A stretch of DNA of 21,281 nucleotides from IMG/VR virus record IMGVR_UViG_3300002835_001301, positions 1 through 21,281 of that record, one strand, 5' to 3'. This stretch comes from a virus. Below, one piece after another: positions 6,006 to 20,227 of the stretch (the stretch's first letter is position 1; each line of letters opens with the position of its first letter). The position numbers and the translations under genes were made by a program. The notes beneath the pieces were generated by a model. The model was not told the origin of the DNA and ran no database searches. It worked only from the letters and a program-made list of their open reading frames with translations.

Positions 6006-6037
6006 AAAAATAGGAACTTCGGTTCCTATTTTTTTTT
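6006..6037. terminator. Bidirectional rho-independent terminator between convergent genes
   Basis: A perfect 12-bp stem (6006-6017 with 6022-6033) closes on a C(UUCG)G tetraloop. It has an A-run on the left and a T-run on the right, so it can stop transcription in both directions. It ends the sheath transcript on the plus strand. On the minus strand it lies at the very end of the endonuclease gene: the TAG stop (6026-6028) is inside the stem and the final three Lys codons are the T-tract read backwards. Confidence 0.9.
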
Positions 6038-6574
6038 ATTGGCACTCCATATCCATTTTGTATTTCCACAATCCCATATTCTATCAAATCCATTTAATTG
6101 CATATTACTCCATTCGGTTATTGTTGAATCATAAACTTTAAGTAATTTTTTTAATTTATGTTTTTGAAACTTGTTACGAGATGAAAATATGGTTTTATTG
6201 TTATTGATTTTAAAGTAGTGGTAATTTGGTGAAGTTACCGAGTGGATATTGAAATTTAACCTACGATATGATTCACCGGTAAAGTAACGCCTATCTGCAA
6301 AAGAAACTATATTATTTGGTTGGTACTCATTAACAAAATATTTAAATAATTTTTCCAAAGAACCACGAACATTGAATCCAACTTTATTACAGAATCTATA
6401 CATCTCCCATTCTGTTTCATTGCTAAATCTATTTTTACCAAATGTTAAAACGCTAACGAGTTCGTCGTTGTGATACAATCCAATTCTAACTGAGGATTTA
6501 TCTTCACCTTGTATGTGATTTTTATTTAAAAATTCATTTGATATTTTCGCCGGTATCTCCCTTAAAGTACATTT
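6026..6574 (-). other. GNAT-like C-terminal domain of the minus-strand endonuclease
   Basis: This segment encodes residues about 357-538, downstream of the nuclease core. It contains FLNKNHIQG, a strand pair IGLYHNDELVSVLTFG, then RFCNKVGFNVRGSLEKLFKY and the terminal DRIWDCGNTKWIW. The strand-helix pattern resembles acyltransferase-fold domains in phage proteins. A catalytic role is not shown; it could instead bind DNA. Confidence 0.4.
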
Positions 6575-7642
6575 TCTACCATGTATAGATTCTATTTTTT
6601 CCGAATTAATCTTATTCAGTAGTATGGACTTTACTATTTCTTTTTTATTAATCCATTCTATATCCAGTATGTGTATTAGAGTTATACCACGTTCTGTACA
6701 CCATTTTGTTTTATTTAGATGGTATTTCTTTGATTTACCACCCGATACTTCGCCATGATAATAAAGTCCATTTAGTTCGATAGCCATATTAATCGCCGGT
6801 AAATAAATATCAAGTTCTTTTCCATTCAAAATATTTCTATCACCATGAATAATTTCGCCATCATATATGTTCCTCAACCACTCTATAATTTCAAATTCAT
6901 ATTTGGATTTAGAAATGTTTACAGGATGACATACTCTACAAATAGGAATATGTCCATTATCTAAATTTGATTCAAATTCGTTTCCACATGAATTACATTT
7001 AAATTTATATCTATTCGTATGTGATATTCCAATGTATGTTTCAAAATCAAACAACGGAGTTACTTCTGTTAATTTTGATAATACTTTTTTAAAGGATGCT
7101 TGTTTATTTTTTTGAATTAACATTGGATGATTGACGCCATATTTTTCCGCCAATCTTTGTTTAAAAAGTGGAGACTGTGAAAATGAAACAACACCATATT
7201 TTTTTAATATGGTATTTTTTGTTTTTTCTTTATTATTATAACTCGAATCCCCATATTTCTCTATTAGTGTTTGTTTTGCCTTTTCTTTATTAGTATAGTT
7301 TGAATCGCCATAACGTTTAAGTTTTGTTGATTTTACCTTTTCACGAAATCCAGTAATCTGTGAGTTATGTTCTACTCCATATTTTTCCATTAAACTCTTT
7401 TTAGTTTTTATTTGTTTTCGTTCCAAAACTTCGGCGGTACGCTGAAATTTATTTGCACATACTTTACTACAAACTATACGGTTTTTTCTTCTATCCGACT
7501 TAAATTCTTCATTACAGATTGGACACGATTTTACAATGGTATTTAATCTTTTAATGTATTCATCATGACATCTTCTTGAACAAATTTGTTCTGATTCATA
7601 GTGAGACTTAGTGAAACTTAGTTTACAATTTATACAATTCAT
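6026..7642 (-). CDS. Free-standing homing endonuclease-like protein: zinc fingers, KYG repeats, Vsr/PD-(D/E)XK-type core, GNAT-like C-terminal domain
   Basis: I place the start at the ATG at 7642-7640 (538 residues), not at 7729 or 7672. It follows AAAGAAAG, gives MNCINCK directly at the first zinc-binding cysteines, and leaves the ATATTTAT motif 35 bases upstream, as at other genes. Domains: two Cys4 zinc motifs (C3/C6...C21/C25; C40/C43...C58/C62); five spaced KYG/RYG repeats (residues about 82-172) of the kind seen in phage homing endonucleases; a third Cys4 ribbon (CNSC...CRVC, 216-238); a nuclease core with LDIY (D278), IELNGLYYH (E289, H296) and ITLIHILDIEW (320-330), resembling the Vsr-like 'EDxHD' homing nucleases such as I-Bth0305I; and a C-terminal region (about 355-535) with IGLYHNDELVSVLTFG and GFDRIWDCGNTKWIW, which looks GNAT-like. 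It is antisense to all neighbours and visibly more AT-rich, as expected of a mobile gene. Confidence 0.82.
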   Translation of the reverse strand: MNCINCKLSFTKSHYESEQICSRRCHDEYIKRLNTIVKSCPICNEEFKSDRRKNRIVCSKVCANKFQRTAEVLERKQIKTKKSLMEKYGVEHNSQITGFREKVKSTKLKRYGDSNYTNKEKAKQTLIEKYGDSSYNNKEKTKNTILKKYGVVSFSQSPLFKQRLAEKYGVNHPMLIQKNKQASFKKVLSKLTEVTPLFDFETYIGISHTNRYKFKCNSCGNEFESNLDNGHIPICRVCHPVNISKSKYEFEIIEWLRNIYDGEIIHGDRNILNGKELDIYLPAINMAIELNGLYYHGEVSGGKSKKYHLNKTKWCTERGITLIHILDIEWINKKEIVKSILLNKINSEKIESIHGRKCTLREIPAKISNEFLNKNHIQGEDKSSVRIGLYHNDELVSVLTFGKNRFSNETEWEMYRFCNKVGFNVRGSLEKLFKYFVNEYQPNNIVSFADRRYFTGESYRRLNFNIHSVTSPNYHYFKINNNKTIFSSRNKFQKHKLKKLLKVYDSTITEWSNMQLNGFDRIWDCGNTKWIWSANKKK

Positions 7643-7677
7643 AATAATCTTTCTTTGTTGAATTTGGTTCATATAGT

Positions 7678-7685
7678 ATAAATAT
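7678..7685 (-). promoter_or_regulatory. ATATTTAT promoter-like motif for the minus-strand endonuclease
   Basis: On the minus strand the sequence is GTATATTTATACTA. The 8-mer ends 35 bases before the ATG at 7642. It is the one copy reversed with respect to the window, matching the one reversed gene, which supports a strand-specific function. Confidence 0.6.
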
Positions 7686-7730
7686 ACACAAAATATTTTT
7701 ATTATACTAAAAAAATTTAATAGATTCAAT

Positions 7731-7783: not shown

Positions 7784-8272
7784 ATGGCAGAATTACTCGA
7801 CCCTACTGAAATATTTTTTACACCGTATGAACCTAAACTTGCAAATAGGTTTATCATGTACATCGAAGGTGTTCCTGCTTATTTGATTAAAGGTGCAAGC
7901 AGACCTAACATCAATTTCAACCCTATTACACTCGACCACATCAACGTTAAACGTAAAGTTAAAGGTAAAGGTGAATGGCAGGACGTAACAATTAAACTTT
8001 ATGACCCTATTGTACCATCCGCGGCACAAGCCGTAATGGAGTGGGTTCGTCTATCACACGAGTCTGTAACAGGACGTGATGGTTACTCTGACTTCTATAA
8101 GAAAGATATAACCTTCAACGTACTTGGACCGGTTGGTGACAAAGTTGAAGAATGGACACTTAAAGGAGCATTTATCACGGCAACAACATTTGGTGATATG
8201 GATTGGTCAACAGATAACTTTGTTGAAATTTCACTTACGTTAAGTTATGACTATGCTATCCTCCAGTTCTAG
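7784..8272 (+). CDS. gp19: Tail tube protein, T4 gp19-like
   Basis: At 162 residues it is almost the same length as T4 gp19 (163). The ATG follows TTGGAG at good spacing. Recognisable features are the N-terminal PKLANRFIMYIEGVPAYLIK, the RPNINFNPITLDHINVKRKV strand pair, GKGEWQDVTIKLYDP, and the final WSTDNFVEISLTLSYDYAIL, all typical of the contractile-tail tube fold. It forms the inner tube inside the sheath. In T4 this gene directly follows the sheath gene; here the pair is split by the reversed endonuclease gene, and a second endonuclease gene follows, so the tube gene is bracketed by mobile genes. Confidence 0.96.
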   Translation: MAELLDPTEIFFTPYEPKLANRFIMYIEGVPAYLIKGASRPNINFNPITLDHINVKRKVKGKGEWQDVTIKLYDPIVPSAAQAVMEWVRLSHESVTGRDGYSDFYKKDITFNVLGPVGDKVEEWTLKGAFITATTFGDMDWSTDNFVEISLTLSYDYAILQF

Positions 8273-8374: not shown

Positions 8375-9265
8375 ATGCAAACATTTAAATGTCACATTTG
8401 TAAATCTGAATACGATTCATATTTAGGCTTATCACGTCACTCACGTATAACACATCAAATTGATAAAGATAAACTTCGTATTATTATCTATAACAGTGGC
8501 GAACAGCCACTATGTAAATGTGGGTGTGGTGAACAAGTTTCGTGGAACTATAAAGAAGAAAAATTCAATGATTTCAGGCAGGGTCATTATGTTAGAACAA
8601 CAGGTGGATTTTATTCCCCAACTGGTGCAATAAAATCAGGAGAGACACGAAAACAAAAATTTAATAATGGGGAATTGATTCAATGGAATAAAGGTATTTC
8701 AATGGAAGATGCCTACGGCAAAGAACGTGCCAATCAACTGAAACGGTCTATATCCGAGAATAACGAACGTTCTAAAAAAATATCACGTAGTTTGATTGGT
8801 AAGAAAAAATCGGAAGAACACATTAGGAAAATAACAGAAGATAGACGAAAATATTGGTCAAACGAAGAGCATAAGATACAACAACGTGATAGAAGAATGC
8901 GGTATATTATAAAGAACGGCCTTCAAGTTAGATCAAAATTAGAAACGGTATTTATGGAGATTATGGATTCTCTTAGTCTAGAATACTATGATCAATTTTA
9001 TGTGTCAGAAATACCGGCGTTATATGATTTCAAAATAAAAGGAAAAAATGTTTTAATCGAAGTGGATGGCGATTTCTGGCACTGCAAACCCGGAACAAAA
9101 TTTGAAGTACCAAAATATGACGCACAAAAATCAAATATGATAACCGACCAAATCAAAAACGAATGGGCAAAAGCCAACGGCTACACCCTTCTCCGATTTT
9201 GGGAATCAGACATTCAAGATAATCGACTTCAAGTAGTAAAAACTTTGATAGAAAATTTACTCTAA
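8375..9265 (+). CDS. Homing endonuclease: C2H2 finger, NUMOD-like region, Vsr-like nuclease core
   Basis: This is a 296-residue protein. Domains in order: a C2H2 zinc finger (C6, C9, H22, H27); a cysteine cluster CKCGCG near residues 47-52; a NUMOD3-like DNA-binding segment around residues 104-155 (WNKGISMEDAYG, ISRSLIGKKKSEEHIRKI); and a C-terminal nuclease core with SKLETVFMEIM (E190), LYDFKI (D218), VLIEVDGDFWH (E229, D231, H236) and GYTLLRFWESDI. The core matches Vsr-type very-short-patch and related 'EDxHD' homing nucleases. It cuts DNA at a specific site to spread its own gene, so the target is probably in a neighbouring tail gene of phages lacking it. The tail tube and gp26-like genes beside it appear intact, so it is free-standing, not intron-borne. 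It resembles the reversed endonuclease only in the general type of nuclease core. Confidence 0.88.
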   Translation: MQTFKCHICKSEYDSYLGLSRHSRITHQIDKDKLRIIIYNSGEQPLCKCGCGEQVSWNYKEEKFNDFRQGHYVRTTGGFYSPTGAIKSGETRKQKFNNGELIQWNKGISMEDAYGKERANQLKRSISENNERSKKISRSLIGKKKSEEHIRKITEDRRKYWSNEEHKIQQRDRRMRYIIKNGLQVRSKLETVFMEIMDSLSLEYYDQFYVSEIPALYDFKIKGKNVLIEVDGDFWHCKPGTKFEVPKYDAQKSNMITDQIKNEWAKANGYTLLRFWESDIQDNRLQVVKTLIENLL

Positions 9266-9313: not shown

Positions 9314-10171
9314 ATGTCACAAATACCAACCGGGTATGAATCACCTGAAATGAGTGATGCTGACCTTAAGCAACAACTCTTATCACAATATAAACAAAAA
9401 GAAGTAAAGAAAACAAATTTCCCAACGGAGATGGTTCCGCTCCCGTCTAAGGGATTAATTTATCCAGAAGGGCATCCACTCGCGGAAGGTATCATTGAAA
9501 TGAAGTATATGACTGCAAGAGAGGAAGACATCCTAACCTCACAGAACCTTATTAAACAGGGTGTGGTATTAGATAAGTTGTTTGAGTCTCTTATTGTTAC
9601 CCCGATTGATTATAATGACCTTTTTGTTGGGGATAAAAATGCTATTATGGTGGCCGCAAGAATTTTAGGATATGGAAAAGATTATGTAGTTGAAATTGAC
9701 GATCCGTTTTCACCGGGTAATAAACAAAAGGTTACTATCGATTTAACACAAATAGAACATAAGGAGGTGGATTACTCTCTATTTGAACACCGCAAGAATG
9801 AGTTTGATTTTGAATTACCACAATCAAAGCGGGTCGTCACTTTCCGTTTAATGACACATAAAATTGAAAGAGAAATTCAAGCGGAAATGAAATCTATGAA
9901 TAAAACACGTATAAAAAGTGGAATTGATAATGAATTAACCACAAGACTAAAAAACATTATTATTGCAGTTGATGGTGAAAGTGGCCGTGCAACTATAAAT
10001 AATTTTGTGGATAATGAGTTGTTTGCCATGGATTCACGTGCTTTACGATCATATATTAAGGAAATGTCACCAGACCTTGATATGACGTTTACTTTTGTTT
10101 CAGATACTACCGGTGAAGTTAAGGAGATGGAAATCCCTATGGGTGTTTCCTTTTTTTGGCCTAACCAGTGA
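9314..10171 (+). CDS. gp26: Baseplate hub assembly protein, T4 gp26-like (T4_baseplate family)
   Basis: This 285-residue protein's ATG follows TTAGGAAA. Residues about 40-100 carry the family signature MVPLPSKGLIYPEGHPLAEG, then IEMKYMTAREEDILTSQNLI and VLDKLFESLI. The C-terminus ends in IPMGVSFFWPNQ, like the FFWP ending I recall for this family. T4 gp26 (208 residues) acts in assembly of the baseplate hub. Its place upstream of the tape measure also fits the chaperone genes of other long-tailed phages. The last codons lie over a T7 run (10151-10157), and a conserved-looking second frame continues past the stop (see the gp51-like entry). Confidence 0.85.
   Translation: MSQIPTGYESPEMSDADLKQQLLSQYKQKEVKKTNFPTEMVPLPSKGLIYPEGHPLAEGIIEMKYMTAREEDILTSQNLIKQGVVLDKLFESLIVTPIDYNDLFVGDKNAIMVAARILGYGKDYVVEIDDPFSPGNKQKVTIDLTQIEHKEVDYSLFEHRKNEFDFELPQSKRVVTFRLMTHKIEREIQAEMKSMNKTRIKSGIDNELTTRLKNIIIAVDGESGRATINNFVDNELFAMDSRALRSYIKEMSPDLDMTFTFVSDTTGEVKEMEIPMGVSFFWPNQ
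10121..10126 (+). promoter_or_regulatory. Internal AAGGAG ribosome-site-like sequence
   Basis: This is a good anti-16S match inside the gp26-like gene. It is 16 bases before the in-frame GTG (10143) of the gp51-like frame, which is longer than usual, and 24 bases before the T7 run. It could support a weak internal start or act as a pausing element; neither is shown. Confidence 0.3.
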
Positions 10172-10376
10172 TTATAAATTAGGATTACACGAAGAAATAT
10201 TTTCTTTGTGTTATTACGGCAAAGGTGGGTTTTCTTGGGATGAAGTTTATAATTTACCTATTCATCTCCGACGATTTTATATTAGTCAAGTTTCAAAAGT
10301 AATTATGGAACAAAATAAAGCACAACAAAGTGAGATGACCAAAAAACCAGCACCTCCGCCGAGATTTAGTAAATAA
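10143..10376 (+). CDS. gp51-like baseplate/tail assembly protein in the +1 frame overlapping gp26-like; probably made by frameshift
   Basis: The frame is open from TTG 10095 through GTG 10143 to TAA at 10374-10376. The part that looks conserved begins at codon 10185: LHEEIFSLCYYGKGGFSWDE, then VYNLPIHLRRFYISQV, then a Lys/Gln tail and PAPPPRF. That short helical pattern resembles gp51-like hub-assembly proteins, which follow gene 26 in T4. No ATG exists before this segment. The candidate starts are GTG 10143 (AAGGAG 16 bases away) and TTG or GTG further up with no ribosome site. A +1 or -2 shift on the T7 run at 10151-10157 would instead join it to the gp26-like protein (281 residues before the junction; 353 in all for +1). 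The start given here is only the nearest possible codon. Confidence 0.6.
   Translation: MFPFFGLTSDYKLGLHEEIFSLCYYGKGGFSWDEVYNLPIHLRRFYISQVSKVIMEQNKAQQSEMTKKPAPPPRFSK
10151..10157 (+). other. Candidate programmed frameshift site (T7) joining gp26-like and gp51-like frames
   Basis: In the gp26-like frame this reads TCC TTT TTT TGG. Phe-tRNA on TTT (10154-10156) can re-pair one base forward (10155-10157) or two bases back (10152-10154). Both continue as GGC CTA ACC in the gp51-like frame. The zero frame ends 12 bases after the run (TGA 10169-10171). I see no certain downstream stimulatory structure. Confidence 0.5.
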
Positions 10377-10381
10377 TTCAC

Positions 10382-10417
10382 AGTCTTCATATTTATGGAT
10401 ATGAAGACTATTTTTTT
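10382..10417 (+). terminator. Rho-independent terminator after the gp51-like frame
   Basis: AGTCTTCATAT (10382-10392) pairs perfectly with ATATGAAGACT (10399-10409), with a six-base loop TTATGG, followed by a seven-T run (10411-10417). It begins 5 bases after the gp51-like stop and would separate that transcript from the tape measure unit. Confidence 0.85.
10389..10396 (+). promoter_or_regulatory. ATATTTAT promoter-like motif spanning the terminator arm and loop
   Basis: The motif ends 37 bases before the ATG at 10434 and runs from the left arm into the loop of the terminator at 10382-10417. A compact 'stop the old transcript, start a new one' element is implied. Confidence 0.6.
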
Positions 10418-10433
10418 ATTGGAGAAAAATTTT

Positions 10434-10658
10434 ATGAAGAAAACATTATTAGACATTATCGTGGATTTTATAGCAAAACGAAAAGTTAATATATTAACGT
10501 CGGTTTTTACTAAGAATAAAAAAATCGTTAGTGCAATCGAAGATTTAAATAAATCATATACTGCCATGGAAAAAAACATAGAAGACTACTGTAAGAAATA
10601 TCCAGAGGCCTGTAAAAGAGCAGAAGAGAAGAGAAGAGCGGCTGGGTTAGACTTCTAA
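10434..10658 (+). CDS. Small charged protein of unknown function upstream of the tape measure
   Basis: I choose the ATG at 10434 (74 residues), which follows TTGGAGAAA. The upstream in-frame ATG at 10395 lies in the terminator loop and in the promoter motif and has no ribosome site. The protein starts MKKTLLDIIVDFIAKRK, an amphipathic and basic helix rather than a clear signal peptide, and ends in a charged helix YCKKYPEACKRAEEKRRAAG with two Cys. Its stop is 6 bases before the tape measure ATG, which has no ribosome site of its own, so coupled translation is likely. It may be a tape measure partner or chaperone; I do not recognise a family. Confidence 0.7.
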   Translation: MKKTLLDIIVDFIAKRKVNILTSVFTKNKKIVSAIEDLNKSYTAMEKNIEDYCKKYPEACKRAEEKRRAAGLDF

Positions 10659-14311: not shown

Positions 14312-17300
14312 ATGGCATTATTAGACTTATCATCGGACTTATCAAGATTTCGTTCACAAATTTCCCGTGAAGAAAAAAATACACCGGAATCATCGAAGGC
14401 AACGAACAATAAAAACTTTGCAACATTCCAACCTATAACAGAAAGGGTGTCTTCCTTATCACCTGCAATTAAAAAATTGGACTCCGTTAAACCGCTGGAA
14501 ACAAAACTATCATCAATTAAAACGGATGATATAGTAAACTTTGCACGTCAAAATCTTCTAATAAATTCTGTTTCTAAGTATTCATCTATTAATCGGTCAT
14601 ATTCAGAGGATTCTCTTCGTAATGTTCAAACATCTGAAGTTGAATCCCGTTTTAATAAAATACAACAAAAAGAATTTGTCAGTAACTTATACAAATCTAA
14701 TGTTGTTATTTTAAAACCAACCGGTGATAAAAATACAACATCCCCGGTTGATATAGTTTTAAATCCAAACGATTCAAGTGACAATATACAAAATCCAAAT
14801 ATAACAATAACTACACCACCTCTTTCGTTGGATAGAACAAAAACATCGCCGGTTATAACTAAAAATCTAAACGATTCAAGTGATAATGTAGAAAATCCAA
14901 ATATTGTCATTAATACCATACCGTTAACATTCGATAGAAAAAAATCCAGTCCTTTGATTGTTATTAAAAAAAATGACACAAGTGATAATATTCAAAATCC
15001 AAATATTGATATATTACGCAAATCTTTATCATTTGATAGGGCATCTCAATCTCCCATAATATCAACACAGACTATTAAACAGGGTTTAGTTGTAAACCCA
15101 AACACAGATATTATAAAAATAGAAAATGGAATATTTCATTTAGAAGATGAAAGTAAATTAAATCCATCGGGTAAAACTATTAGATTTATTTCCGAATCTA
15201 AACTGGTGAAGAAAGAAATACGTGAAAAGAAAGACACCCAACGATATGATGGCACTTCGGGTCAATTAAAAGATAATTCTAGATTAAATTTAGATTCTGT
15301 AATTAAAACAATACCGTATGGTAGAAATGAAAATCCCAATAAGTCAAAATTATCTATCGTTGGTACTCAATCGGTAAACTTCTTTAAAGACGATAATGCA
15401 ACTGGTTTTATTGTGAATGCAAAACGCGGTGAATCACAATATAAAGAAAGTTCATCCTTCGTATGGAAAGGAACTGGAAATGCAGCACCGGTGACAAATT
15501 TTATGGTGGATGTCAATGGAAAGGGGTTTACGAAATTTGCAAATATAGGTGAAACTCTTTACAATACAAATAGTTCTAAATTTGGGTTTACATCTACACC
15601 ACAAGTAGATTTTTTCGATTCTGTTAAAAAATATACATCGGAAGGATTTGAGAAGTTTACAACAATAATGAAAACTGCATACCAACCGGATGCCTCCACA
15701 TTTACATGGCCGGGTGGTAGAACGAATGCACCGGAAACAAACTATTTCGATAAAGAGTCTAAAAACACAACAATAGGATTTCATAAGTTTGCTAAAATGT
15801 ACGATACAAAGTACGTTTCAGATTCTTCATTGTTTAACTGGGACGGTAGTAGGGAATCTGCACCAGAAGTTAATTACTTCGATATAAGTGGTAAAAACAC
15901 TAATATGGGATTTCATAAATTTGCACAAGTATATGACACAAAATTTATCCCCGAATCGTCTTTATTCGATTGGGATGGTAATAGAGAATCTGCACCAAAC
16001 GTTAATTATTTTGACGTAACTGCAAAAAATACAACAACGGGATTCCATACATTTGCACAACTCTACGATACAAAGTATGTGCCAGAATCATCTCTGTTGG
16101 ATTGGGATGGTACTAAAATAAATGCACCAGAAGTTAATTACTTTGATTTAACTGCAAAAAATACAACAGCTGGTTTCCATAGATTTGCACAACTCTATGA
16201 TACAAAGTATGTACCAGAATCATCCTTGTTTGATTGGGATGGTAATAGGGAATCTGCACCCGAAGTTAATTACTTTGATTTAACTGCAAAAAATACAACA
16301 GCTGGTTTCCATAGACTTGCTCAAATATATGATACTAAATATGCCCACGAGTCTTCTCGTTTTGATTGGGATGGTAATCGAAACGACGCACCATCTGTAA
16401 ACTATTTCGATATTGGTGGTAAAAACACATCTATCGGGTTTCATACATTCGCTCAAATATATGATACAAAGTATGTACCGGAATCATCAAGATTTGATTG
16501 GGATGGTAACAGAAATTCATCTCCGGAAGTAAACTACTTTGATATTAGTGGGAAATTTACTACTAACGGATTCCATAGACTGGCCGAATTATATGATACG
16601 AAGTATGTGCCGGAATCATCAAGATTTGATTGGGATGGTGGTAGAACAAATGCACCGGAAGTAAATTACTTCGATATTAGTGGGAAAGTTACCACAAAGG
16701 GATTTCATAAACTGGCTGAACTATATGACAGTAAGTATGTGAAGGGTGCGTCTAAATTTGATTGGGATGGTACAACAACATCTGCACCAACAACTAATTT
16801 CTTTCAGGATAGATATAACTCAGGATTTAAAACATTTGCACAAAAATTAAAATCCGAATATGTCCGTGATATTTCAGAATTTACGTTTAAAGGTTCACAA
16901 CCAGATCCTGTGGATTTCTTTTCAAATACAAATTCGTCTGGATTTACAATTAAAATACCCATATTAGAATCTAAGTATGTGAGCGATATTAGTAGATTTG
17001 CATTCAAAGGAACAACTCCAAATCCGGTTGATTTTTTCACAAACAATAATGTTGACGGGTTTACTATTAAAGTAAATAAAAACGAAACTAACTATAAGAC
17101 TGAAAGTAGTAGATATACATTTAAAGGTAATCGTTCTTCCGCACCGAGTGTTGATTATATTGGCAATCAATATGCAAACGGGTTTGTAAATTTGATGCAA
17201 CATTTAAAAACGGAGTATGCAGAAAAACAAAGTAAATTTACATGGGTTGGTTCAAGGGGTGATGCACCATCTGTGGATTTCTTTAAAATACCGGCTCAAA

Positions 17301-20227
17301 ATTCATCGGGTATATCCGGATTCGATACATTCTTTATTGATAAGACATCAACGAAGTATTCTGATAAATTATCGAGCCTATCTGCAGAAAGTTCTAACAA
17401 AAAGTCTGCTGTAAAAAATATTCCGTACACCACGTTCTTTGGATATAGACCACAAGAACGTACAGGATTTATGGTGAACATGAGTACATTTGATGGTACA
17501 TTATTTCCAATCATAAATCCAAAATTAAAGTTTGACTACAACCTGGATGCACGAACACAAATTTCAATAGTACGTTCAGAAAATCCTGCAAATTTAAAAA
17601 CAGGGGAACTCGAAAATTATGCACCACTTTCTCTTGGAAAGAGACCGTGGGCAAATGGAACTTTATTTTCAACATTAGATTCACAAATACCTAATTTAAA
17701 AACAAAGGCACCAGCTGGGTCATACACTAACAAGTATGAACGTTCAATGAAAGATACCACCGAAAAACTTGGGTATCTTACAAAGTGGGCAATCACACGT
17801 CGTTCACCTTCTCCACTCGATGATCAGTATTCCAAATATAAACTACAAGATGAATCGGTTAACAGAGAAGTTGCTGTATTCAATCAACCGTATGTTGTTC
17901 GTGGTATTCAACGTGTGGGTGAAGTTGAGAATCAACGATGGGGATTTGGTGTAACATTTGATGATGGTATTATACGTGGTGGTACAACAACTCAAGCGGA
18001 AAGAATACTACAAGACGTGGTTCGTATTGGTAAATTCACATTAAGTGCAAAGGGTGCATTATTCAACATCAAACAACTCGGTTTACAGGCGATGAATCCG
18101 GTCGTAGATGTTGACCCTAAAATATTTACAAACGGGGTTTTGGGAATATCCTCTACTTTGTTATACAATCCATTATCATTGATTGGAAACGTTGCAACTG
18201 CACGTGCCGGTGGTCATTACGCAAGACATGGTATAAATCCGTTGGATTCTGATTACTTAAACAAGTATGGAACATCAACTGTAAACAGGGAATTAAAAGA
18301 AAGATTTACTGATCCAAATTATACAAGTTTTGATAGACTACCGTCGCCAAGTATTATAAACAATGATCCAGGTGGTTACAATAGATTGATTGGATTGATG
18401 AAAGAATTATTGCCAAGTTCATTTAAACCATCTACTAGGCCGAAACCCCAATTTTTTGGCTCAATGAACCTTCTTAATTTCTTACGAGGTTCTTCGGTGA
18501 TGAATCGAGTTTCTTCAAATTTCGGTGGACCAAATTCATTTCTCGGAATTGGCGGGACAAAAATCAATAGGGCATCACATCCTTATTTGGGATCATATAC
18601 CACAAGTCCTATGTTATTCAATGAATCAAGTGAAACCTCTTATTTAGAATCAGCTAAGAGAGATACATTTTACGCGGCATCACGTACTTATCGTGATAGT
18701 ATAATAGATAGTAATTCACAATATAAGGGTATATTAGAGGCCTTAATTGGATTACTAGAATCTGGACCTGAAAATCCGGCGGTTAACACTTCACCTTCGG
18801 ATTTAAACGAAACCCTCGAATTACAAAAAGACACAAAAACCAGAATCGTAAATTCGAGTACATTTGAACCAAGATATGAGAACATAGTAGATAGAATAAG
18901 TGTACGAAACAATTACTCTGCAAAAAAGGAAGGAAGTGAATTATATCGTGGTCCAGACAGTAAAATAATAGATTCGGATTCCGATCCTATAAAGAAATAT
19001 AGAACACTTGCTTACAATAAACTTCAAAAGGTAAAGCCGGGAATCTCCGGTAGATCGGCTCTATTTAATGATTTCAGACATGATTTAGAATCAAGTGGTT
19101 CCGAATCATTTATAACACATCCTGGAATCGCAAGATATGATACTAGAAATCTTGAAAATTATTTCGGGTTGGGTAAATATGGAAAACCCGGTGCACAACG
19201 TAATATCCCATATAATAGTAATGTTGTTTATAGTAAATCTGAGAAAGGTATAAATAAATTAGCGGGAAGTGCCACCAACGACGCAGAGGCTAAGAAATTT
19301 CAGACATATTCTGTTCCTAAATTAAAACCAGATTCTGAATTTAGGGGAGACCGTATAAATATCATAGACTATAAACGGGCAAATTTTGATATATCACACA
19401 ACTTGGTATATGAACAAGGAGCATACAATGACAACTCTTTACCAGGTTCTAAAGATTTAGTTGAATTTTATTTCTCAAGTCTTGTATTGAGTGGACATAA
19501 TTATTGTCCTGCCGAAGTTATAGTATTCCGTGCAACGTTTGATAGTATAACTGATAATCATAAACCAAGTTGGAACTCTGTTAAGTATATGGGACGGGCG
19601 GATCCTTTATACACATATCAGGGATATGAACGTTCAATATCGTTTGGATTCACGGTTCATATCGGTTCACGTGATGAAATGAAGGCAAGTTGGAGAAAAT
19701 TGAACTATCTATCCTCATGGACGGCACCAGAATACACGAAAGCCGGATTTATGCGGGCACCTATGATTAGATTGAATATCGGTAATCTTTATAGAAAAAT
19801 GCCTGGTTACATAAGTAATTTATCATATACATTTGATAACTCAAATGGATATTGGGAAACTGCACATTTGTATGAGGATCAAAGAATGGATGGCGCTAAT
19901 AAAGATTTATCCACGCCGGGTGCATTGCAATTACCAAAAAATATTCAAGTTTCTTGTGAGTTTGTTCCGGTTGGTGTGTACAGACCAGAGTTCAGAGGTG
20001 TGATGTATTCGTTGTACGATGATAAAAACGGAGATAGTTTGGAAAATGGTTTAATACCAATAGATAACACTAAAGTAAATTATTTTAAAACATTTGATGA
20101 TATGGGTATAGATGGCGACCAAAACAAATACAATTTGACTATACCACCCGGTGATGAAAATAAACCGTTGGATGGTAAGTTTGAAGATTCACCACAATCT
20201 ATGCCCGGTACACCTGGTCAAAATTAA
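14312..20227 (+). CDS. Giant repeat-containing baseplate / tail-tube-initiator protein
   Basis: This 1971-residue protein has an N-terminal linker-like region, then three 34-residue repeats (residues 153-254, NDSSDNIQNPNI type). Next comes a long array (about 354-1023) of roughly 16 degenerate repeats, eight of them exactly 44 residues (475-826; consensus VNYFDISGKNTTxGFHxFAQ, then YDTKYVPESSxFDWDGNRxxAP). A middle domain includes WGFGVTFDDGIIRGGTTTQAE and ALFNIKQLGLQAMNP. The C-terminal domain (about 1687-1910) has VIVFRATFDSITDNHKPSWN, YMGRADPLYTYQGYERSISF, SWRKLNYLSSWTAPEY and LPKNIQVSCEFVPVG. It reads as a tube-like fold of the type used by baseplate proteins that start tube growth (the place of T4 gp48/gp54). 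Position after the tape measure and before a LysM wedge gene agrees. The repeats are unlike anything in T4 and their role is unknown. Confidence 0.75.
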   Translation: MALLDLSSDLSRFRSQISREEKNTPESSKATNNKNFATFQPITERVSSLSPAIKKLDSVKPLETKLSSIKTDDIVNFARQNLLINSVSKYSSINRSYSEDSLRNVQTSEVESRFNKIQQKEFVSNLYKSNVVILKPTGDKNTTSPVDIVLNPNDSSDNIQNPNITITTPPLSLDRTKTSPVITKNLNDSSDNVENPNIVINTIPLTFDRKKSSPLIVIKKNDTSDNIQNPNIDILRKSLSFDRASQSPIISTQTIKQGLVVNPNTDIIKIENGIFHLEDESKLNPSGKTIRFISESKLVKKEIREKKDTQRYDGTSGQLKDNSRLNLDSVIKTIPYGRNENPNKSKLSIVGTQSVNFFKDDNATGFIVNAKRGESQYKESSSFVWKGTGNAAPVTNFMVDVNGKGFTKFANIGETLYNTNSSKFGFTSTPQVDFFDSVKKYTSEGFEKFTTIMKTAYQPDASTFTWPGGRTNAPETNYFDKESKNTTIGFHKFAKMYDTKYVSDSSLFNWDGSRESAPEVNYFDISGKNTNMGFHKFAQVYDTKFIPESSLFDWDGNRESAPNVNYFDVTAKNTTTGFHTFAQLYDTKYVPESSLLDWDGTKINAPEVNYFDLTAKNTTAGFHRFAQLYDTKYVPESSLFDWDGNRESAPEVNYFDLTAKNTTAGFHRLAQIYDTKYAHESSRFDWDGNRNDAPSVNYFDIGGKNTSIGFHTFAQIYDTKYVPESSRFDWDGNRNSSPEVNYFDISGKFTTNGFHRLAELYDTKYVPESSRFDWDGGRTNAPEVNYFDISGKVTTKGFHKLAELYDSKYVKGASKFDWDGTTTSAPTTNFFQDRYNSGFKTFAQKLKSEYVRDISEFTFKGSQPDPVDFFSNTNSSGFTIKIPILESKYVSDISRFAFKGTTPNPVDFFTNNNVDGFTIKVNKNETNYKTESSRYTFKGNRSSAPSVDYIGNQYANGFVNLMQHLKTEYAEKQSKFTWVGSRGDAPSVDFFKIPAQNSSGISGFDTFFIDKTSTKYSDKLSSLSAESSNKKSAVKNIPYTTFFGYRPQERTGFMVNMSTFDGTLFPIINPKLKFDYNLDARTQISIVRSENPANLKTGELENYAPLSLGKRPWANGTLFSTLDSQIPNLKTKAPAGSYTNKYERSMKDTTEKLGYLTKWAITRRSPSPLDDQYSKYKLQDESVNREVAVFNQPYVVRGIQRVGEVENQRWGFGVTFDDGIIRGGTTTQAERILQDVVRIGKFTLSAKGALFNIKQLGLQAMNPVVDVDPKIFTNGVLGISSTLLYNPLSLIGNVATARAGGHYARHGINPLDSDYLNKYGTSTVNRELKERFTDPNYTSFDRLPSPSIINNDPGGYNRLIGLMKELLPSSFKPSTRPKPQFFGSMNLLNFLRGSSVMNRVSSNFGGPNSFLGIGGTKINRASHPYLGSYTTSPMLFNESSETSYLESAKRDTFYAASRTYRDSIIDSNSQYKGILEALIGLLESGPENPAVNTSPSDLNETLELQKDTKTRIVNSSTFEPRYENIVDRISVRNNYSAKKEGSELYRGPDSKIIDSDSDPIKKYRTLAYNKLQKVKPGISGRSALFNDFRHDLESSGSESFITHPGIARYDTRNLENYFGLGKYGKPGAQRNIPYNSNVVYSKSEKGINKLAGSATNDAEAKKFQTYSVPKLKPDSEFRGDRINIIDYKRANFDISHNLVYEQGAYNDNSLPGSKDLVEFYFSSLVLSGHNYCPAEVIVFRATFDSITDNHKPSWNSVKYMGRADPLYTYQGYERSISFGFTVHIGSRDEMKASWRKLNYLSSWTAPEYTKAGFMRAPMIRLNIGNLYRKMPGYISNLSYTFDNSNGYWETAHLYEDQRMDGANKDLSTPGALQLPKNIQVSCEFVPVGVYRPEFRGVMYSLYDDKNGDSLENGLIPIDNTKVNYFKTFDDMGIDGDQNKYNLTIPPGDENKPLDGKFEDSPQSMPGTPGQN
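14768..15073 (+). repeat. Three tandem 102-bp (34-residue) coding repeats
   Basis: Units start at 14768, 14870 and 14972. Each begins ND(S/T)SDN(I/V)(Q/E)NPNI, then a Leu-rich strand and (L/F)DR, then a Ser-Pro pair. They are in register with no linkers. The DNA has diverged, so the duplication is not recent. Confidence 0.85.
15371..17382 (+). repeat. About 16 tandem repeats, core of eight exact 132-bp (44-residue) units
   Basis: The regular core is 15734-16789, with units starting at 15734, 15866, 15998, 16130, 16262, 16394, 16526 and 16658. Flanking units (three before, about five after) are degenerate and of other lengths (about 37-44 residues). Shared residues are V-N/D-Y/F-F-D at the start, G-F in the middle, Y-D-T-K-Y, then S-S-x-F-D-W-D-G and a closing A-P. 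Units at 16130 and 16262 share an identical first 54 bases, pointing to a recent duplication or gene conversion in the middle of the array. Confidence 0.93.

Follow-up and report, generated by a model that had tools for sequence, protein, structure and literature searches.

The window analysed here is the whole 21,281 nucleotide stretch (positions 1 to 21,281) of the IMG/VR virus record IMGVR_UViG_3300002835_001301. The locus of interest lies within a contractile tail module that holds sheath, tube, chaperone and tape measure genes. Its features are these:

7784-8272 (+): tail tube protein gene (phrog_4542 tail tube, E 2.3e-27)
9314-10171 (+): gp26-like gene in the zero frame, 285 aa, putative G-like short form (PF12322, phrog_150)
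10151-10157 (+): T7 slip site, read TTT_TTT_T and kept among relatives, at which +1 re-pairing of tRNA-Phe (UUU to UUU) is proposed
10157-10159 (+): TGG, the zero-frame codon that would be waiting at the slip
10169-10171 (+): zero-frame stop TGA, six codons past the first slip codon
10152-10376 (+): +1-frame coding region, a T-like domain of 74 aa, marked by its codon-position divergence and a profile match to cyanophage gp51
9314-10376 (+): predicted GT-like fusion, 353 aa
10665-14267 (+): tape measure protein gene, 1200 aa (phrog_4372 tail length tape measure protein, E 2e-6), whose product is the proposed client of the chaperones

The gp26-like open reading frame starts with the ATG at 9314. 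Its 285-aa product matches PF12322 (T4_baseplate) over residues 59-282 with 30 bits (E 5.4e-7), which passes the curated cut-off of 24.5 bits, and the match extends up to the slip site. The product also matches phrog_150, "baseplate hub" (E 1.2e-11). Over the T-run, the zero frame reads TCC_TTT_TTT_TGG_CCT_AAC_CAG_TGA. The +1 frame ends with the TAA at 10374-10376, and translation across the shift gives 353 residues. This is the size that the first-pass annotation had proposed for a fusion, and its reading and placement of the gp26-like frame, the +1 frame and the T7 run were all confirmed. That annotation had also seen conservation in the +1 frame only from 10185; it in fact begins at the T-run itself, with the motif FFGLxxxYKLGLHEEIF.

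As in lambda G/GT-type loci, the gp26-like gene sits with the tail tube gene on one side and the tape measure gene on the other. An endonuclease-like frame at 8375-9265 (+) lies between the tail tube gene and the chaperone gene. It encodes a 296-aa protein with DUF559/Vsr-like and zinc-finger matches. Together with a 567-aa protein encoded at 6026-7729 (-), which matches DUF7487 (E 1.5e-18), it flanks the tail tube gene. Both are present in some relatives only, and both are possibly mobile endonucleases. An 87-aa frame (10395-10658) separates the T-like domain from the tape measure gene; it recurs in about 18 related loci and has no clear family match. Further downstream, 14312-20227 encodes a protein of 1971 aa in which a unit of about 55 residues (VNYFD..GFH..AQ.YDTKYVPESS.FDWDG.R..AP) is repeated imperfectly many times; no Pfam match was found for this protein.

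Relatives were collected in two ways. One was a scan of IMG/VR, in which 597 stretches turned out to encode relatives and 80 loci were retained; the other, a profile scan, gave 80 loci, with identity down to 47%. When these were aligned for the T-run, the frame offset and the lack of a start, as the first-pass annotation had recommended, the arrangement proved to be kept. TTT_TTT_T and the offset persist in 130 distinct relatives, with two single-base variants, and T7 is present in 159 of 161 loci, the remaining two having CTTTTTT and TTTCTTT.

This conservation is greater than chance would deliver, since TTT occupies each slip position in 129 of the 130 distinct gp26-like frames, compared with a TTT share of 63-83% at four other conserved Phe columns. 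The surroundings of the slip codons vary more. The codon before the site takes 13 forms, the codon after it is TGG (109), TAC (20) or TAT (1), and the zero-frame stop follows the first slip codon at a distance of six codons in 115 cases, eight in 14 and five in one. Among 30 representatives sharing less than 70% identity, TTT accounts for 30/30 and 29/29 of the Phe codons at the two slip positions, while third positions just upstream vary.

The same layout is found further afield, in MAG contigs of Bacteroidota and in the phages Bacillus SP-15 (TTT_TTT_CAC), Listeria LIS04 (TTT_TTT_AGT) and Streptococcus GXN1 (TTC_TTT_CGT). Two isolate genomes, Flavobacterium phage immuto (TTT_CTT_TGG) and Mel-JY01, have the same offset as the window; the uncultured phage LR756508 has TTT_CTA_TTC at its slip region. 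In immuto, LR756508 and GXN1 there is no T7, and UUU_C is retained. What the sites have in common is a UUU with U or C after it, a rule that favours +1. LR756508, LIS04 and GXN1 score well over the PF12322 cut-off; Mel-JY01 and immuto are clear relatives of the window protein that fall below PF12322 detection.

Two possible stimulators of slipping were sought. No conserved RNA structure was found downstream of the slip site (mean z -0.7). Upstream, AAGGAG occurs at 10121-10126, 25-30 nt 5' of the site. Near relatives keep it (AAG in 59/63, GAG in 61/63, where AAG makes up only 29% of Lys codons), and the distant clade does not retain it. Spacings of 25-30 nt lie beyond those familiar for frameshift stimulators. 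On both grounds, its restriction to the near clade and its distance, AAGGAG was rejected as a Shine-Dalgarno-like stimulator.

The +1 frame behaves as a coding frame. Its divergence at codon positions 1, 2 and 3 is 0.236, 0.112 and 0.471, similar to that of the gp26 frame (0.191, 0.096 and 0.437). In the window it is open back to about 10086 and offers the candidate starts TTG 10095, GTG 10113 and GTG 10143, none of which is conserved among relatives. Scanning from the upstream +1-frame stop through codon +12 past the T-run, no ATG, GTG or TTG is found in 42 of the 130 relatives, and in 29 the frame is closed by a stop one to three codons before the T-run. The scarcity of starts, the stops and the pattern of divergence together indicate that the +1 frame is protein-coding and that, in many relatives, it can be entered only from the frame upstream.

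Existing annotations of this region are patchy. In immuto, the GenBank record has a 36-aa frame inside the T-like domain (L004, 3142-3252) and misses the remainder; in Mel-JY01, the annotated frame begins just before the T-run (L002, 2995-3231). Both look like gene-caller artefacts of a frameshift. DUF6760 was considered as a family for the downstream domain and rejected (E 0.03, under its cut-off); no mention of it was found in the open literature.

The locus thus resembles lambda G/GT-type loci in that the downstream frame overlaps the first, has no start of its own and meets it at a conserved slippery site. It does not have the canonical -1 site (X_XXY_YYZ with the following frame at -1); the offset in the window is +1. 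The reading favoured here, with a probability of about 80%, is that the gp26-like gene yields a 285-aa G-like chaperone and, by a programmed +1 frameshift, a 353-aa fusion, a pair resembling lambda G and GT. On this reading, the zero frame would be translated to give the 285-aa tail assembly chaperone. A share of ribosomes would slip +1 at UUU_UUU_U, with the peptidyl-tRNA-Phe re-pairing one base ahead while UGG stays undecoded. Decoding would then resume in the +1 frame with GGC CUA ACC, appending the T-like domain of about 74 aa. That the shift occurs, how efficient it is and that its direction is +1 are inferred. If the lambda model applies, the two forms would together load the tape measure protein: the short one would cover it, and the long one, the less abundant of the two, would draw in tube subunits.

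Several other explanations would also yield two overlapping frames. The best placed of them, although unlikely, is a programmed -2 slip, in which UUU moves back two bases and the fusion gains a Phe, reaching 354 aa. The T7 run is compatible with this, and phage Mu provides a precedent (PMC5009743). The sites in immuto, LR756508 and GXN1 argue against it, however, because they permit a +1 move of UUU to UUC (or of CUU to UUU) and offer no good -2 pairing for tRNA-Phe. CUU_U is, further, also the site of the release factor 2 frameshift, which again speaks against -2. The first-pass annotation had left the direction as +1 or -2; the first half of that proposal has gained support and the second has lost it, so that a programmed +1 shift is favoured.

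Less probable is a separate downstream gene, translated from GTG 10143 or from some other weak start codon, or reached by termination and reinitiation at the zero-frame stop, with no fusion made. The window does have GTG 10143, which the first-pass annotation took to be the main rival start; an ATG lies three codons ahead of the T-run in 29 of the 130 relatives; and the ATG annotated in cyanophages lies mostly 5 nt past the stop. The hosts of the window clade are, moreover, probably Bacteroidota (6 of the 9 genome-collection matches to the clade are MAG contigs of Flavobacteriales, Winogradskyella, Saprospiraceae or Sphingobacteriales, and an isolated relative infects Flavobacterium), and translation in Bacteroidota depends little on Shine-Dalgarno sites. 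Against this, GTG 10143 is rejected as the start because start positions are not conserved, because many relatives have no candidate start at all, and because others close the frame just ahead of the T-run. A separate gene also leaves the choice of codons in the T7 run unexplained. Finally, in two phages of the -1 group described below, Citrobacter Ci1 and Rhizobium IC12, no start precedes the conserved block.

Just as improbable is slippage by RNA polymerase on the T7 run, such that some mRNAs lacking one U (or carrying two more) encode the fusion. The site is, of course, a homopolymer, but a run of seven is short for transcriptional slippage, and the layout survives interruption of the run in immuto, LR756508 and GXN1. 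Other genes do make use of transcriptional realignment (PMC5009743). The last explanation, that a sequencing or assembly indel has broken a single continuous frame, can be set aside even though the site is a homopolymer, because none of the 161 IMG/VR loci has a frame-restoring T6 or T8, contig L008 from another record is identical to the window, the isolates Mel-JY01 and immuto share the offset, and the MAG contig L262 keeps it unchanged with TTT_TTT_TTC.

The +1 shift proposed for the window is not the only arrangement seen at this position. In all 64 distinct cyanophage-like gp26 frames, the gene ends with T_TTT_TTC, a -1 heptamer, and the T-like domain follows at -1. Among cyanophages and other T4-like phages, a conserved -1 heptamer U_UUU_UUC/G ends the gp26 genes of loci L096-L098, L180-L259, L274-L276, L278 and L280. 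Thus, the cyanophages (Kyanoviridae) resemble the window in having one PF12322 gene, followed at the homologous position by a T-like domain in another frame, annotated there as a second gene, the "baseplate hub assembly catalyst" gp51. They differ in their -1 offset, in their canonical U_UUU_UUC and in that a separate ATG is mostly also present, which makes a separate start possible there. This ATG lies mostly 5 nt past the start of the zero-frame stop; in P-RSM4 and Bellamy it lies at 8 or 14 nt instead. Ci1 and IC12 have the heptamer, and Cygsa01, Vibrio K476 and LR756511 have an overlapping ATG instead. The small gp51 annotated in cyanophages may, then, not be an independent gene but a -1 extension.

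Profile comparison connects these domains to each other and to T4. The +1 domain of the window clade matches cyanophage gp51 with E of about 4e-6 (4.4e-6), and a pooled set of cyanophage, rhizobium and T4 gp51 sequences with E 2.2e-6; in both cases 0 of 100 column shuffles did equally well. The T4 gp51 tail matches the small cyanophage gp51 with E 1.9e-13. Compared directly with the T4 gp51 tail by itself, the window T-like domain scores modestly (E 4.8e-4, probability 32%).

T4 genes 26 and 51 (locus L088, 7803-9229) both encode the same domain. In T4 gp26 the PF12322 match takes in residues 1-206 of the protein's 208 (E 8.8e-64); in T4 gp51 it spans 1-201 of 249 (E 3.9e-52). A comparison of a profile of eight gp51 sequences with one of seven gp26 sequences aligned gp51 7-202 to gp26 8-208 (E 1.2e-22). 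By these matches, gp26 and gp51 of T4 are paralogues of one domain, and gp51 is that domain with a tail of about 47 residues. The first-pass annotation had called the downstream frame gp51-like. The resemblance to T4 gp51 holds for its tail; the piece by itself corresponds to that C-terminal tail, and it is the fusion that whole gp51 matches.

The T4 proteins (Straboviridae) are therefore like the window protein in that both contain PF12322, and gp51 is like the fusion in that its tail is homologous to the window +1 peptide. The difference is that T4 has two genes, divergently transcribed, with no frame change, where the window has one gene and a frame change. Judged by homology, the window arrangement is the single-gene counterpart of T4 gp26 (the short form) and gp51 (the domain with a T-like tail). 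The link between gp26/gp51 and the general logic of tail chaperones, which the first-pass annotation had guessed at, is for this reason stronger than was supposed: the two are paralogues standing for the short and the long forms.

Gene counts point the same way. Two PF12322 genes are present in every one of the seven T4-type genomes checked that have an in-frame gp51, against a single one in each of the 18 genomes with split frames (for Mel-JY01 and immuto, the window family's own profile was used for the count). Frame change and duplication accordingly look like alternatives that serve one need. Throughout the T4 superfamily, short and T-extended forms of a single ancestral chaperone domain, PF12322, would be made by a +1 shift (UUU_U/UUU_C), by a -1 shift (U_UUU_UUC/G), from an overlapping ATG or by duplication. 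If these routes are interchangeable, T4 gp26 and gp51 probably correspond to lambda G and GT, having arisen by duplication.

That tail chaperones can depend on programmed frameshifting, +1 shifts included, is well known. Systems of the lambda G/GT type make the short product and the fusion at a defined ratio, and neither is found in virions. In lambda, the tape measure protein is bound by gpG as well as by gpGT, whose T part recruits the tube protein; the shift between G and T is -1, -2 or +1 depending on the phage (PMC5009743). The window locus is like lambda in that a gene upstream of the tape measure gene would give a short product and, by a frame change at its 3' end, a C-terminally extended one, the extension having no start of its own. 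It differs in its direction, +1 rather than the -1 of lambda, and in its slip site, UUU_UUU_U. No sequence similarity was found between the window proteins and lambda gpG or gpGT. Listeria phage PSA also uses a +1 shift in structural genes, although in different ones, and the tail chaperone of halovirus HSTV-2, not known to be kin to those of the window, very likely uses +1 (PMC5009743).

The AlphaFold model of the gp26-like protein has a pLDDT of 86, and its C-terminal part modelled alone has 68. HK97 gp13 (2ob9), a known G-type chaperone to which the likeness is suggestive, came first both for the C-terminal part by Foldseek (E 0.78, prob 0.51) and for the whole model by VIA-align (Z 4.9 over 78 residues), neither score being significant; a search of solved structures by sequence found no relatives. 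Since no structural score is significant, the chaperone role rests on position, on T4 genetics and on architecture. T4 requires gp51, yet the particle lacks it, and both gp51 and gp26 are classed among the hub assembly chaperones (PMC3004832); one Acinetobacter phage record names both proteins "tape measure protein assembly chaperone." From these we infer that the gp26-like protein of the window and its fusion act as tail chaperones.

The open literature was searched for a frameshift in gp26/gp51, for paralogy between the two and for gp51 as the equivalent of GT; none of the three was found reported there. In a 2016 review, T4 was singled out as the exception to G-T frameshifting (PMC5009743). 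The comparisons made here suggest that one domain is deployed in two lengths, through frameshifting in the majority of the T4-like phages compared and through duplication in T4, which has apparently exchanged G-T frameshifting for gene duplication. If this is true, the recorded exception vanishes, and gp51 becomes the long form of a chaperone that acts on the tape measure protein gp29. This, in turn, suggests a role for two poorly understood T4 proteins, gp26 and gp51, and a re-annotation of hundreds of cyanophage gp51 genes. It would also provide a set of naturally occurring sites that slip in different directions, -1 or +1, at one position, and it makes a direct genetic test in T4 possible.
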